A stretch of 57,839 bases of DNA from Lachnospiraceae bacterium. GTDB taxonomy: Bacteria > Bacillota > Clostridia > Lachnospirales > Lachnospiraceae. The translations under genes were made by a program, and so were the position numbers. The notes beneath the pieces were generated by a model. The model had not been told where the DNA came from and searched no databases. It worked only from the letters and a program-made list of their open reading frames with translations. Below, piece after piece: positions 1 through 57,839 of the stretch. The first letter of the stretch is position 1, and the number at the start of each line of letters is the position of its first letter. Location: contig JAFZVZ010000030.1 in NCBI GenBank assembly GCA_017617545.1, forward strand, positions 1 through 57,839, given 5' to 3'.

Positions 1-73
1 CCCGAGTGGCCAAAGGGGGCAGACTGTAAATCTGTTAGCGACGCTTTCGAAGGTTCGAATCCTTCCCCATCCA
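1..73 (+). tRNA. tRNA-Tyr (GTA), 5' end missing
   Basis: The window opens inside the D arm. The anticodon loop reads CTGTAAA (anticodon GTA). The long class II variable arm and the T arm GGTTCGAATCC follow, then the acceptor strand CCCATCC and discriminator A73. About nine bases of the 5' end lie outside the window. CCA is not encoded. Confidence 0.93.
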
Positions 74-78
74 GTTGC

Positions 79-152
79 CGCGGGGTAGAGCAGTCTGGAA
101 GCTCGTCGGGCTCATAACCCGGAGGTCGCTGGTTCAAATCCAGTCCCCGCAA
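79..152 (+). tRNA. Initiator tRNA-fMet (CAT)
   Basis: Anticodon CAT sits in loop CTCATAA. Two initiator marks are visible: the first base pair is a C1/A72 mismatch (CGCGGGG against CCCCGCA), and three consecutive G-C pairs close the anticodon stem (GGG/CCC). The T arm is GGTTCAAATCC. CCA is not encoded, so the 3' end must be added enzymatically. It lies 5 bases after tRNA-Tyr, so the two are probably cotranscribed. Confidence 0.95.
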
Positions 153-155
153 TCG

Positions 156-185
156 TCCGAGCCACCCGGTTCGGAGTTTTGTTTC
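156..185 (+). terminator. Terminator-like hairpin after tRNA-fMet
   Basis: TCCGAGCC, loop ACCC, GGTTCGGA forms an 8-bp stem with one G-U pair. It is followed by GTTTTGTTT. It would end the Tyr-fMet transcript, although no clear separate promoter is visible for the downstream tRNA-Phe, so partial readthrough is likely. Confidence 0.5.
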
Positions 186-228
186 CTTTCGAGGTTTTTC
201 GAGAGGGAGACAATCTCATATATACCAT

Positions 229-301
229 GCCCAGATAGCTCAGTTGGTAGAGCAGCGGACTGAAAATCCGCGTGTCACTGGTTCGATTCCGGTTCTGGGC
301 A
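229..301 (+). tRNA. tRNA-Phe (GAA)
   Basis: Acceptor GCCCAGA pairs with TCTGGGC and the discriminator is A. The anticodon loop CTGAAAA gives anticodon GAA. The T arm is GGTTCGATTCC. CCA is not encoded; a T-run follows directly. Confidence 0.95.
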
Positions 302-310
302 TTTTTTCAT

Positions 311-54587: not shown

Positions 54588-54656
54588 GCCCGCTGCTCTT
54601 GTGAGCCGGCAGTATTTCTTCGGAAAATGAAGGACCTATAATAAACCCCATCCCCC

Positions 54657-54685
54657 TTGAATTCCCTCCGCGCGCGTGCTACACT
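54657..54685 (+). promoter_or_regulatory. Promoter of the 54727 lipoprotein gene
   Basis: TTGAAT, 17-base spacer, TACACT, 41 bases before the ATG. Confidence 0.65.
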
Positions 54686-54726
54686 GAACGGTGCAGTATC
54701 CGGAAGGATTTCAGGGGGGATTTATC

Positions 54727-56256
54727 ATGAGAAGACAAGTTACGGCAATCGCGCTGGCGGTTTTGCTGGCGGTCGTGTCGGTTTCCTGCGGGAAGCCGGA
54801 ACCGGAGCCGGAGGCGCCGGAGAAGAAACAGGTTTCGTTTGGATTCCGGACCTACGAGTACAGCGAAGAAACCGGAACGAAGGTTCTATACGAGGAGTAC
54901 GAGAACCGGATCACGGAGCGCTCACTGGCTCAGTACAATGGTGCAGGGGATGTTACGTTCGTCGAAAAATGGTACTACGACAGTACGGGGAAGACGCTTC
55001 TGAAACATGTCGTCTGGTCGAAGGATTATCCGACAAGGTCGGAGGAGTACGACGAGAAGGGGCGGCTGATCCGGCGGTCGGTGAAGTTTGAGGAGGTGCA
55101 TGCGGAGGCGAGAGCCGAGGGGTGGATCCACCTTCATTTTCCGGAGGAGTACAAGAGCGGATTTCCGGAAAAGCTCCCGGATGATGTCGCGGATTGGGAC
55201 GCGTTCAACCATTGGTTTAACATTTGTTCAGAGGTGAAGCCCGGCATTGATGAGATCATCACCGAGTACACGTACGACAGTGATTCCGATGTGATCACGG
55301 GAATCCGGACGTTCACCGGCAGCGGAGAGGTGATCGGGCAGCTTGTGCGCGGCGACGGCGATATCATACTGAAGAAGGTGATCGTCACAACCGATTTTTC
55401 GTATGAGGAGACGTTCGATCCCGAGACCGGGACCGGGACGTGGACGGTCATCGCAGACGACGGGAATTTGAGGCCCTGCGGAACACGAACGTATAACGCT
55501 TCAGGGCAGCTTGAATCCGCTGTCTGGTTTGAGGATCAAACGGAAGAAAATCAGCTTGACTTCACGTATCAGCACGATGCCGACGGGTGTGCGATGTCCA
55601 TGGTTTATACGGACAACGCACAAGGCGGGGTAGCGGCTGTCGTTAACCGCAACTGGGACTCGGAAGGAAGGCTGATCCGCGATGAGGCGGTGTACTCGGA
55701 TCTGTTCTGGGGCGAGTACCAGTCAAGCAACGTGCTGTGGGAGTTCTCATACGACAAGGACGGGAACACGGTGAAGACGCTGTTCTCGCATCAGAGGAAT
55801 GACGGAATCCAGTCGATTGATCTGGTGCTGACGGAGGAGCGGAAGGACAATAAATTCTTAAGGAGGCTCACCGACCACGGGAAGGTTGTGGAGGAGTACA
55901 CGGTGGAGCTTGTCGAGGTTCCCGGGATCGCCGGCAAAGTACAGCACGTGACGGATTACTATAACTACGGGACAGAGGAGAAATGCGAGATATATTACGT
56001 GGATCTTCCGGACCAATATGATCCGGGGGAAACACAGGAGGTCCAGTACAGTGAAATCACACAGGACCAAGGGGATCTGTACGAAGCTGAGTTTGACGAG
56101 GCGGGGATCCTGCGCCGCCTGGTATGCCGCAAGAGCATCGAGACCGTGACCGAATACGACGAGCGCGGACGCATGGTCAAAACGTATTCCCTGACGGATC
56201 CGGGAAGAAAGGAGTCGGGCTACCTCTACGAATACTGGGAGGAGGAAGAATCCTGA
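54727..56256 (+). CDS. Lipoprotein with YD/MORN-like repeats
   Basis: 509 residues. A signal sequence ends in VSVSC with Cys as the likely lipid site, followed by a Pro/Glu linker (GKPEPEPEAPEKK). The rest is made of degenerate beta-hairpin repeats of the form Y(D/N)xxGxLxxxxxxY, for example YDEKGRLIRRSV, WDSEGRLIRDE and YDERGRMVKTY, similar to YD/Rhs or YwqK-type repeats. No toxin or enzyme domain is seen. AGGGGGG precedes ATG 54727. Single gene with its own promoter. Function unknown; it should be anchored on the outer face of the membrane. Confidence 0.8.
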   Translation: MRRQVTAIALAVLLAVVSVSCGKPEPEPEAPEKKQVSFGFRTYEYSEETGTKVLYEEYENRITERSLAQYNGAGDVTFVEKWYYDSTGKTLLKHVVWSKDYPTRSEEYDEKGRLIRRSVKFEEVHAEARAEGWIHLHFPEEYKSGFPEKLPDDVADWDAFNHWFNICSEVKPGIDEIITEYTYDSDSDVITGIRTFTGSGEVIGQLVRGDGDIILKKVIVTTDFSYEETFDPETGTGTWTVIADDGNLRPCGTRTYNASGQLESAVWFEDQTEENQLDFTYQHDADGCAMSMVYTDNAQGGVAAVVNRNWDSEGRLIRDEAVYSDLFWGEYQSSNVLWEFSYDKDGNTVKTLFSHQRNDGIQSIDLVLTEERKDNKFLRRLTDHGKVVEEYTVELVEVPGIAGKVQHVTDYYNYGTEEKCEIYYVDLPDQYDPGETQEVQYSEITQDQGDLYEAEFDEAGILRRLVCRKSIETVTEYDERGRMVKTYSLTDPGRKESGYLYEYWEEEES

Positions 56257-56330
56257 CCGAAAATCTGTAATCCCCCTGCTCGATTTCGGTTTCCCGTCTT
56301 GCATTGACGGGGGCGTTATGGTATTATTCT

Positions 56331-56514
56331 TTGGGAAACGCTGAGGAATTCAATCGATTTCAAGTTTCCCGTTCAGCGTTTCCCAATTTGAATCGATTGA
56401 CGCAATTTGCGCCAATCGCCGCCGAATGCGCGCCCGCGAAGCGGGCATTCCGCTGCGCATTCGTGCGATCTGCCAGAGGCTAAAAGGAAACGCTGATTAA
56501 TCAGCGTTTCCTTT
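56331..56514. repeat. Palindromic intergenic repeat, copy C (longest)
   Basis: Modules in order: TTGGGAAACGCTGA with TCAGCGTTTCCCAA (56331-56386); CGATTGACGCAA/TTGCGCCAATCG; centre GCCGAATGCGC, GCCCGCGAAGCGGGC, GCGCATTCGTGCGATC; and an end hairpin AAAGGAAACGCTGATT/AATCAGCGTTTCCTTT (56483-56514). Same orientation as copy B, opposite to copy A. Confidence 0.82.
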
Positions 56515-56648
56515 GATGTGCGCTCGTGTTGCGGGCGTTCGCGGCCCCTGCCGCGCTGCCGGTCGTTGACACATGCTTTGCGCGAAGCGTGAAGCCGGTG
56601 CCGGGCGGGCAAAATGCAGGGAGAATTTTCCTCGGAGGAATCTAAGAT

Positions 56649-57839
56649 ATGAGCAAATCGATCGATACGATGTCTGTCAACGCCATCCGCGTTCTCGCGG
56701 CTGATGCGATCCAGAAGGCGAAGTCCGGTCATCCGGGTCTTCCGCTCGGCTCGGCTGCCGTTGCATACGAGCTTTGGGCAAAGCATATGAAGCACAATCC
56801 CGCCAACCCCGATTGGCCGAACCGTGACCGGTTCATCCTCTCCGGCGGACATGGCTCGACGCTTCTGTACTCCCTTCTTCACCTGTTCGGCTACGGCCTG
56901 ACCAAGGAAGATATGATGCAGTTCCGTCAGGACGGTTCCCTGACCCCGGGTCATCCGGAGTATCGCCACACCAAGGGTGTTGAGGCGACCACGGGACCTC
57001 TCGGCGCAGGTATGGGTATGGCAGTCGGTATGGCGATGGCTGAGGCTCATCTCGCCGCGAAGTTCAACAAGCCCGGCTATCCGGTTGTTGACCACTTCAC
57101 CTACGTGCTCGGCGGCGACGGCTGCATGATGGAGGGTGTTTCCTACGAGGCAATGTCCCTTGCAGGTACGCTCGGCCTCTCCAAGCTGATCGTGTTCTAC
57201 GACAGCAACAAGATCAGTATCGAGGGTAACACCGACATCGCGTTCACCGAGGATGTTCAGGCAAGATTCCGCGCGATGGGCTTCCAGACGCTCGTTGTCG
57301 AGGACGGCAACAACCTCGAGGAGATCGCAGCAGCGATCGAGGCTGCCAAGGCTGAGACGACGAAGCCTTCCATGATCACCGTGAAGACGCAGATCGGTTA
57401 CGGCTGCCCGGCGAAGCAGGGCAAGGCGTCCGCGCACGGCGAGCCTCTCGGTGAGGAAAATGTTGCAGCCATGAAGGAGTTCCTTGAGTGGCCTTCGCAG
57501 GAAGCATTTTTCGTACCTGAGGAAGTCTATGACAACTACAAGGCACTCGCAGCTGAGCATGCGAAGGATGAGGACGCGTGGAACGCTCTCTTCGCTGACT
57601 ACTGCGCGAAGTTCCCGGAGATGAAGCAGGCTTGGGACGACGAGTTCAACATGGACATCGCGAAGCCTCTCATCGACGACGCAGAGTACTGGGCTTACGA
57701 GGAGAAGGCAGACGCTACGAGAAACCTCGGCGGCTGGGCTCTCAACAAGCTTAAGAATAAGGTTCCGAACCTGATCGGCGGTTCCGCTGACCTCGCTCCG
57801 TCCAACAAGACGGCGATGAAGGAGATCGCGGACTTCAGC
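56649..57839 (+). CDS. tkt: Transketolase, 3' end outside the window
   Basis: The first 397 codons are present and the frame is open at the window edge. Motifs: KSGHPGLPLGSA, SGGHGSTLLYSLL, thiamine diphosphate-binding GGDGCMMEG, and KTQIGYGCPAKQGKASAHG. Full transketolases have about 660 residues. The enzyme moves two-carbon units between sugar phosphates in the pentose phosphate pathway. GGAGG lies ten bases before ATG 56649. Codon use (many GCT and GGT) suggests higher expression than its neighbours. Repeat copy C lies upstream; no clear promoter was found between them. Confidence 0.96.
   Translation, partial: MSKSIDTMSVNAIRVLAADAIQKAKSGHPGLPLGSAAVAYELWAKHMKHNPANPDWPNRDRFILSGGHGSTLLYSLLHLFGYGLTKEDMMQFRQDGSLTPGHPEYRHTKGVEATTGPLGAGMGMAVGMAMAEAHLAAKFNKPGYPVVDHFTYVLGGDGCMMEGVSYEAMSLAGTLGLSKLIVFYDSNKISIEGNTDIAFTEDVQARFRAMGFQTLVVEDGNNLEEIAAAIEAAKAETTKPSMITVKTQIGYGCPAKQGKASAHGEPLGEENVAAMKEFLEWPSQEAFFVPEEVYDNYKALAAEHAKDEDAWNALFADYCAKFPEMKQAWDDEFNMDIAKPLIDDAEYWAYEEKADATRNLGGWALNKLKNKVPNLIGGSADLAPSNKTAMKEIADFS

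Follow-up and report, generated by a model that had tools for sequence, protein, structure and literature searches.

The window, by which we mean the whole 57,839-nucleotide stretch JAFZVZ010000030.1 (contig 5 of the 45-contig, 2,732,263 bp (2.73 Mb) assembly of an uncultured Lachnospiraceae bacterium), carries the 8-base word CGGAAAAT far more often than its composition predicts. Our results support the maintenance of this word by selection acting on the DNA itself. Judged from the genomes compared here, there is about an even chance that the word forms the core of a self-recognition signal for DNA uptake, split into dialects, in a lineage that belongs to neither of the two families known to have such signals.

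Density, motif and constraint of the word

An earlier note on this DNA had claimed a strong over-representation of the word, with about 46 copies in the window, about 70 of GGAAAAT and about 90 of a looser form, and no clear strand bias (about 26 against 20). Counting gave 47 strict words (26 on the plus and 21 on the minus strand), 72 GGAAAAT and 98 of the looser CGNAAAAT, among them the 47 strict words. Dinucleotide-preserving shuffles of the window led us to expect only 2.45 copies (standard deviation 1.51), and none of 100 shuffles reached 47. The excess was found to be genome-wide, with 1797 copies in the whole genome (869 and 928 by strand) versus 17 for the reversed word used as control, which corresponds to one copy of this non-palindromic word per 1.5 kb.

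Detailed motif statistics were obtained on 856 kb of the genome, composed of the window and parts of 19 further contigs. Under a Markov model of order 5, all of the five 8-mers with the strongest over-representation were variants of the word (CGAAAAAT, GGAAAATG, CGGAAAAT, CGTAAAAT, and CGCAAAAT). The strict word was observed 583 times, versus 52.5, 175.0, 301.5, and 506.3 expected under models of order 2, 4, 5, and 6, respectively. The comparison with models of order 5 or 6 that the earlier note had suggested, run here on 856 kb and not on the complete genome, gave an excess at order 5 and only a small one at order 6. At high orders much of the signal is absorbed by the sub-words of CGGAAAAT, which are enriched as well.

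For a weight matrix, synonymous-shuffled genes and resampled spacers served as background, and the word was extended to approximately TTCG[G]AAAAT[G][C] (in full t-t-c-t-t-C-G-[G]-A-A-A-A-T-[G]-[C], with weak positions in lower case; 14.5 bits); TTCGGAAAATGC is one sequence that bears it. This matrix matched 1737 times, compared with 260 in the background, or one real site per about 580 bp, and TCGGAAAATG alone was present 96 times versus 2.9 expected in 457 kb under an order-3 Markov model. The third base is loose, with variants enriched in genes as well (CGTAAAAT, 174 vs 19.9; CGAAAAAT, 170 vs 22.6; CGCAAAAT, 118 vs 27.1). Flanks more than about 10 bases upstream or a few bases downstream carried almost no information, which rules out a transposon or a longer repeat. 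This longer motif, along with the dialects, the even spacing and the limitation to a clade described below, goes beyond what the earlier note had reported.

To separate DNA from protein as the level of constraint, synonymous codons were shuffled within genes, which were called with a simple codon-score caller of our own and not with Prodigal. In 768 kb of coding sequence 412 strict words were observed versus 37.8 after shuffling (standard deviation 4.6, maximum 48 in 40 runs), with an excess in every frame of both strands (sense frames, 46/115/36 observed vs 5.5/9.1/4.5; antisense frames, 37/62/116 vs 5.7/9.2/3.8). Spacers, which make up about 10% of the sequence, held 166 of the 583 copies, so that the word is indeed found between genes and in all three codon frames, as had been noticed before. 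No clear bias was detected along the gene, where the strict word was distributed by fifths as 44/39/32/36/44 in sense and 45/49/37/44/39 in antisense, and only 22 of 331 genes of at least 1 kb lacked a matrix site.

The 22 genomes of the genus fall into ten rich in the strict word (1163–1839 copies) and twelve with 284–767. In three genus relatives, comparison at sites where the amino acids are identical (protein pairs of at least 60% identity) showed the word kept in 25/31, 11/13, and 10/11 cases (81–91%), while permuted-word controls were kept in 601/1582, 161/588, and 112/299 (27–38%). In 71 gene pairs of the own genome (G000) and its relative G170, among which 10 had less than 50% protein identity, four-fold sites had a mean identity of 0.48. 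When the amino-acid filter was removed (alignments of at least 400 bp and below 99.5% identity), the word was kept in 37/81, 13/27, and 10/19 cases versus 26, 16, and 22% for controls; turnover at this evolutionary distance therefore affects about one site in two. Codon usage as the cause is ruled out by the synonymous shuffling together with the conservation at identical-protein sites, results that also bear out the earlier proposal of selection on DNA rather than protein.

Strand, spacing and prophage stretches

No leading-strand excess was detected on two long contigs with positive GC skew and 91–93% of their coding sequence on one strand; contig 20 (218 kb, GC skew +0.12, 93% of coding on the plus strand) had 71 forward and 75 reverse copies, and contig 31 (200 kb) had 45 and 68. 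This is relevant for signals of the Chi or KOPS/SRS type, read by RecBCD/AddAB or FtsK/SpoIIIE during recombination or segregation, which would likewise appear as a frequent, constrained octamer and, in the case of Chi, differ between taxa. However, such polar signals need a strong replication bias, and we rejected this candidate, which we regard as very improbable, on the strand symmetry of the word. For known uptake sequences, PMC2346458 describes no general orientation bias.

Matrix sites were more evenly spaced than expected by chance. Across 169 windows of 5 kb, which contained 10.1 sites on average and never fewer than 3, their variance/mean ratio was 0.65, and none of 400 Poisson simulations gave so low a value; the ratio was 0.75 at 2 kb (0/400), 0.71 at 10 kb (7/400), and 0.74 at 20 kb (49/400, not significant). 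For 11 control 6-mers of similar frequency, the median ratio at 5 kb was 1.50 and the lowest 1.07. Every one of the 169 windows contained at least one matrix site, and the largest gap was 4.3 kb.

Neighbouring sites less than 60 bp apart were inverted in 41 of 45 cases (23 between genes and 18 inside genes), the remaining 4 being tandem (2 and 2). Spacing within the inverted pairs was variable, from 12 to 58 bp when facing and from 6 to 53 bp back to back, and several stems exceeded the word. The 23 intergenic pairs were located between co-directional (15) or divergent (8) genes and never between convergent ones, although this absence means little, as convergent gaps represent only 5.2 of 80.6 kb of spacer. 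The 15 pairs between co-directional genes could be terminators. A terminator role as the sole cause of the word is ruled out, since most sites are single and inside genes.

A search for portal proteins gave matches in only one of the 22 genomes, the carrier G151, and none in the own genome. Of two 20-kb prophage stretches of G151, the first contained 3 strict words and 17 matrix matches, and the second, in which some bases are masked, no strict word and 6 matrix matches; a chromosomal stretch of 20 kb had 12 strict words and 30 matrix matches, and the whole 2.8 Mb had 1343 strict words. This comparison refers to a single relative. The two stretches (L282, L283) represent two prophages of this carrier, and the first stretch starts with two genes that by eye resemble serine recombinases.

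The low number of copies in prophages would also fit a self-marker, in which a nuclease or restriction-like defence spares DNA bearing the motif, or the methylated motif, on a chromosome saturated with it, and phages lack it. Asymmetric contiguous words are, moreover, typical of type IIG, type III, and BREX methyltransferases. On the other hand, restricted words are usually avoided and not enriched, and no PF01555 or PF07669 methyltransferase was common to the ten rich genomes, in a search that covered incomplete assemblies and did not include type I (PF02384) and C5 families. Matches to PF01555 (E <1e-20) were present in G000, G151, G165, and G170, and also in G153 and G154, but not in G155, G157, G158, G160, G163, or G167, and PF07669 was similarly patchy among the genomes of the genus. 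We consider this explanation improbable.

A mutational or repair bias that creates the word without any function, comparable to what has been put forward for Vsr-type repair or for cyanobacterial HIP1, could account for the enrichment of the one-base variants at the third position. We give it very little credence, because the enrichment spans at least 10 bases, because even spacing and conservation of single sites need the maintenance of sites and not a local mutation rule, and because copies are scarce in the prophage stretches of the same cell.

Dialects, pilus and competence genes, and the probable reading of the word

The distribution of the motif among relatives was analysed on parts of assemblies, the dialect samples outside the main clade being of 32–148 kb each. 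Matrices seeded with each genome's own word gave CG[G]AAAAT[G][C] in G000, G160, G170, and G167, CGG[CA]AAATGC in G164, CGG[CA]AAAT[GA][CT]GA in G154, CGG[CA]AAATG[CTA]G in G159, G[GA][AC]AAATG[TC][GC]A in G156, and a weak CGG[AC]AAATG in G161, where one of two seeds gave no motif; the variant type CGG[CA]AAATGCGA is carried by other members of the genus. When the background was limited to 25% or less, no motif was obtained for G154, G159, G156, G229, G168, G161, and G162; loosening the limit, to 50% in a first round and then to 35%, recovered one in all of them except G168 (100 kb sampled) and G162 (40 kb sampled). Permuted seeds converged in none of 112 runs over seven genomes.

A midpoint-rooted tree of ComEC was built for 18 of the 22 genomes, as G153 and G159 were dropped as fragments and G165 and G166 had no match. 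Nine of the rich genomes together with G164 formed one fully supported clade (the tenth being G165), and further clades comprised G150, G154, G156, G161, and G169 (supported) and G152, G162, and G168. The dialects follow this single gene tree and share an inner core, G164 carrying the C-dialect inside the A clade.

Outside the genus, the strict word reached at most 898 copies among 149 genomes of other genera of the family (in a genome of 5.7 Mb), the densest having 818 in 3.0 Mb. Among 397 genomes of 334 genera, CGGMAAATG was raised over its reversed form in a few other genera (for example 648/45 in G073, 617/67 in its genus mate G397, 517/24 in G229, 419/60 in G089, and 368/24 in G379), with other genomes mostly at about 2–3 times the control by eye. 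Samples of two of them revealed GGN[CA]AATG in G073 (65 kb; GGGCAATG, 19 vs 2.3; GGCCAATG, 14 vs 1.1; GGTCAATG, 14 vs 1.3) and an excess of GGAAAATG (11 vs 1.3) and TTCATTTT (15 vs 2.3) in G229 (32 kb), so that related words with a common AAT(G) are enriched in three sampled genera, the own genus included. A weak motif (85 vs 27.8) was also detected in G090, from another genus, when seeded with its own top word. Genera with raised CGGMAAATG that may hold dialects of their own are those of G073/G397 (g74), G229 (g209), G089 (g90), and G379/G043 (g44), in addition to G313 and G342. In 30 of 80 records of named relatives, CGGMAAATG stood out only in G417, which is G170 (1198 vs 42); G418, Lachnoclostridium sp. 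UBA7482, had 239 vs 54 in 2.1 Mb, and the remaining 28, cultured Blautia and Robinsoniella among them, had from 70 to 423.

Other repeated words appeared in the same samples. In G161 (L051–L055), a repeat of some 13 bases around GGACGGGGTTAGG occurs 11–16 times in 100 kb; it is unrelated to the motif and perhaps an intergenic repeat family. G168 (L056–L060), a genome without the motif, shows a repeat family around CCCGCTGAGGCAATGGATGG with about 8–14 copies in 100 kb. In G154 (L061–L065, L091–L095) the palindromic ATCGCGAT is in excess (30 vs 8.9), possibly a second over-represented word.

The machinery that an uptake sequence would require was found in the own genome. A type IV pilus operon on contig 7 encodes two T2SSE ATPases (PilB- and PilT-like), PilC, two pilins, PilD, PilM, and a third pilin, as well as a protein placed like PilO and a 664-aa protein. 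The three pilins are located at L267:8430-8894, 9019-9450, and 13107-13772, and the 664-aa protein at L267:13844-15838. ComEA (SLBB plus helix-hairpin-helix; L129:6491-7159) and ComEC are encoded 3.4 kb apart on contig 31, and DprA is also present. Among the 22 genomes of the genus, ComEC was detected in 20, ComEA-like HHH_3 proteins in 22, DprA in 20, T2SSF in 22, and a PilC-type T2SSF (E <1e-27) in 17. This presence is compatible with an uptake sequence and does not single it out. Between comEA and comEC (L129:7175-9299), a response regulator and a histidine kinase, recognised by eye, could form a competence regulator. Elsewhere (G000:C30:61612-62001) there is a second, short T2SSF protein, which in several relatives has a partner at a distance of about 1.6 kb and hints at a Tad-type pilus as well.

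We favour an uptake sequence because the word is dense, non-palindromic, strand-neutral, even, selected at the DNA level, sparser in prophage stretches and split into clade-bound dialects, in a genome with a pilus, ComEA, ComEC, and DprA. A more specific form, which we hold tentatively and at slightly less than an even chance, is that several genera of Lachnospiraceae, a family of dominant gut Bacillota, mark their own DNA with a dialect family (CGGAAAATGC, CGG[CA]AAATGCGA, G[GA][AC]AAATG[TC][GC]A, GGN[CA]AATG) that would be read by a Gram-positive type IV pilus, limiting transformation to kin. Uptake sequences would in that case have arisen independently for a third time, and for the first time among Gram-positive bacteria. 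In such a mechanism, the motif on free double-stranded DNA would be bound by a surface component of the type IV pilus or competence apparatus, either a pilin or a different protein; upon retraction of the pilus, ComEA would pass the DNA to ComEC, a single strand would enter, and DprA and RecA would recombine it. Fragments with the motif would be taken up more often and alleles bearing it would spread by transformation, and copies would thereby accumulate and persist irrespective of strand and codon frame, evenly enough for nearly every fragment of a few kb to carry a site. Drift of receptor specificity in a lineage would carry the motif with it, giving rise to dialects.

Several observations weigh against this reading. 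With respect to the sites, contig 31 leans towards the reverse strand, the first prophage stretch of G151 keeps more than half of the chromosomal matrix count, and the strict word alone is Poisson-like when pairs are left unmerged (variance/mean 0.95 at 5 kb); merging pairs closer than 60 bp gave 0.88 at 5 kb (49/400) and 0.83 at 2 kb (1/400), but it builds in dead time, and the unmerged figure was relied on. In addition, 26 of the 41 inverted pairs lie inside genes (18) or between divergent genes (8), where terminators are not expected. With respect to the machinery, the rich genomes G157, G158, and G165 (91, 85, and 82% complete) have only a distant Tad-like T2SSF and no PilC-type one, the rich G160 (95% complete) lacks a DprA match and the rich G165 a ComEC match, and in the dialect carrier G159 (L048, L049) the comEC match is found in two overlapping pieces with stop codons, consequence of a broken gene or of an assembly error. 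Conversely, G168 and G162, in whose sampled stretches no motif was found, have ComEC, a ComEA-like protein, DprA, and pilC with two adjacent pilins; G168 has the same pilus operon, and G152, left out of the motif sampling, shares pilC with two pilins. As the machinery is thus present in relatives without the motif, no gene found here goes with it, and no receptor emerged; ComEC, T2SSF, HHH_3, DprA, and pilC-adjacent pilins, all tried as associated genes, occur both with and without the motif. Type IV pili of Gram-positive bacteria have roles in adhesion and motility as well. Both of the closest named records come from metagenome assemblies, and no competence test is known to us. The machinery gaps of some incomplete carriers were considered to be offset by the weakening of the terminator argument, which speaks in favour, and our estimate for an uptake sequence was left unchanged.

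The main alternative is a site for an abundant cytosolic chromosome-organising (nucleoid-associated) protein, bound every 0.5–1.5 kb or so, which would fold or protect the chromosome and co-evolve with its site. It shares most predictions with an uptake sequence: even spacing of matrix sites, occupation of both strands, evolutionary constraint and few copies in prophage stretches. The higher density in intergenic DNA also fits it, as does the fact that no gene of the pilus or of competence tracks the motif, and inverted pairs located within a gene or flanked by divergent genes agree with it no less well than with an uptake sequence. However, the inverted pairs have no fixed spacing, unlike sites of a fixed dimer, and a protein whose essential sites number in the thousands would not be expected to change dialect within one genus. 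Furthermore, known nucleoid proteins bind short, degenerate AT-rich sequences, and we know of none that drives a 10-fold excess of a word inside genes. On balance we regard this alternative as rather unlikely, although it stands ahead of the other rivals. From the meanings proposed in the earlier note, therefore, the uptake-type sequence fits best and a nucleoid-protein site remains as its rival, whereas a polar repair or segregation signal is disfavoured, as is, less firmly, a methylation site, given the patchy methyltransferases of the two families searched.

Sites in the window and comparison with known systems

The positions of the word in the window are collected in Table 1. The sites named in the earlier note were right within a few bases in glgC (GCG GAA AAT), the CotH gene (GAC GGA AAA TGG), and the permease gene (CGG AAA ATC), and the hairpin it placed at 50939–50980 corresponds to the inverted pair at 50944/50968; the site at 32109 is a CGTAAAAT variant and not the strict word. 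The CotH-kinase protein also contains lamin-tail and chitobiase-C-like domains.

Table 1. Copies of the word and related features in the window (CDS, coding sequence).
Feature	Position	Strand	Context
CGGAAAAT	1149..1156	-	CDS 703-1968, antisense
CGGAAAAT	1865..1872	+	CDS 703-1968
CGGAAAAT	1978..1985	-	intergenic
CGGAAAAT	4901..4908	-	CDS, antisense
CGGAAAAT	10295..10302	+	CDS
CGGAAAAT inverted pair	11162..11206	11162 +, 11199 -	intergenic, co-directional genes
CGGAAAAT	13269..13276	-	CDS, antisense
CGGAAAAT	14103..14110	+	CDS
CGGAAAAT	15532..15539	+	intergenic
CGGAAAAT	16535..16542	-	CDS
CGGAAAAT	16936..16943	+	intergenic
CGGAAAAT	17036..17043	+	CDS
CGGAAAAT	19893..19900	+	CotH-kinase gene 18172-20310 (Pfam CotH)
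CGGAAAAT	21618..21625	-	CDS
CGGAAAAT	21953..21960	+	CDS, antisense
CGGAAAAT	22924..22931	+	CDS, antisense
CGGAAAAT	23084..23091	-	CDS
CGGAAAAT	24314..24321	-	CDS
CGGAAAAT	26487..26494	-	CDS, antisense
CGGAAAAT	29015..29022	+	CDS
CGGAAAAT	30019..30026	-	CDS, antisense
CGGAAAAT	30417..30424	+	CDS
CGGAAAAT	30476..30483	+	CDS
CGGAAAAT	30765..30772	-	CDS, antisense
CGTAAAAT, degenerate	32109..32116	-	one of 98 CGNAAAAT in the window
CGGAAAAT	33565..33572	+	CDS
CGGAAAAT	34205..34212	-	CDS
CGGAAAAT	38152..38159	+	intergenic
CGGAAAAT inverted pair	39514..39541	39514 -, 39534 +	intergenic, co-directional genes
CGGAAAAT	39593..39600	+	intergenic
CGGAAAAT inverted pair	41144..41209	41144 +, 41202 -	intergenic, divergent genes
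CGGAAAAT	41550..41557	-	glgC, antisense
CGGAAAAT	42465..42472	+	glgC (Pfam NTP_transferase, LbH_GLGC)
CGGAAAAT	44783..44790	+	CDS, antisense
CGGAAAAT	45949..45956	-	CDS
CGGAAAAT	46826..46833	+	CDS, antisense
CGGAAAAT	47098..47105	+	intergenic
CGGAAAAT	48706..48713	-	CDS
CGGAAAAT	49605..49612	-	CDS
CGGAAAAT inverted pair	50944..50975	50944 +, 50968 -	hairpin, -21.5 kcal/mol, stem longer than the word; divergent genes
CGGAAAAT	52369..52376	+	FtsX-type permease gene
CGGAAAAT	53538..53545	+	FtsX-type permease gene
CGGAAAAT	54621..54628	+	intergenic
CGGAAAAT	55136..55143	-	CDS, antisense

Should the word be an uptake sequence, sequence-specific DNA uptake would have evolved outside Proteobacteria. 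A major group of gut bacteria would then be expected to undergo natural transformation, with recombination limited to kin, and the word could be added to DNA as a practical handle for transforming Lachnospiraceae. As a site for chromosome organisation, the word would be unusual both in its density and in the speed of its change. On either reading, a specific protein–DNA interaction would have shaped thousands of sites.

Chi and KOPS are likewise frequent, short and lineage-specific words, but they are oriented with replication and the Lachnospiraceae word is not. HIP1 (GCGATCGC) of cyanobacteria also shows an extreme genome-wide excess in one lineage, in genic and intergenic DNA; HIP1 is palindromic and linked to a methyltransferase, in contrast to the non-palindromic word described here, for which no shared methyltransferase was detected in the two families searched (PF01555, PF07669).

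The closest parallels are the known uptake sequences. The uptake signal sequence (USS) of Pasteurellaceae has the same statistics and few dialect types, and in Haemophilus it is evenly spread over the chromosome, as here. It differs in that USS hosts have a Gram-negative envelope and in its unrelated sequence, of the AAGTGCGGT type according to PMC12616744, where sequence-specific uptake is attributed to two families, Neisseriaceae and Pasteurellaceae. Among the papers listed by a literature search whose coverage left out most subscription journals, none described an uptake sequence from Lachnospiraceae or from any other Firmicutes, and a screen in Veillonella reached no conclusion (PMC5397411). 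The DNA uptake sequence (DUS) of Neisseriaceae resembles the word in several respects, as both consist of about one non-palindromic word of at least 10 bases per 1–2 kb, on both strands and with inverted pairs, and both show clade-specific dialects around a fixed inner core in hosts with a type IV pilus, ComEA, ComEC, and DprA. The inverted pairs of Neisseriaceae have been linked to terminators (PMC3630211), unlike the location of most pairs here. Finally, the Lachnospiraceae word differs from DUS in its sequence, in its phylum (Bacillota) and in its loose third position.

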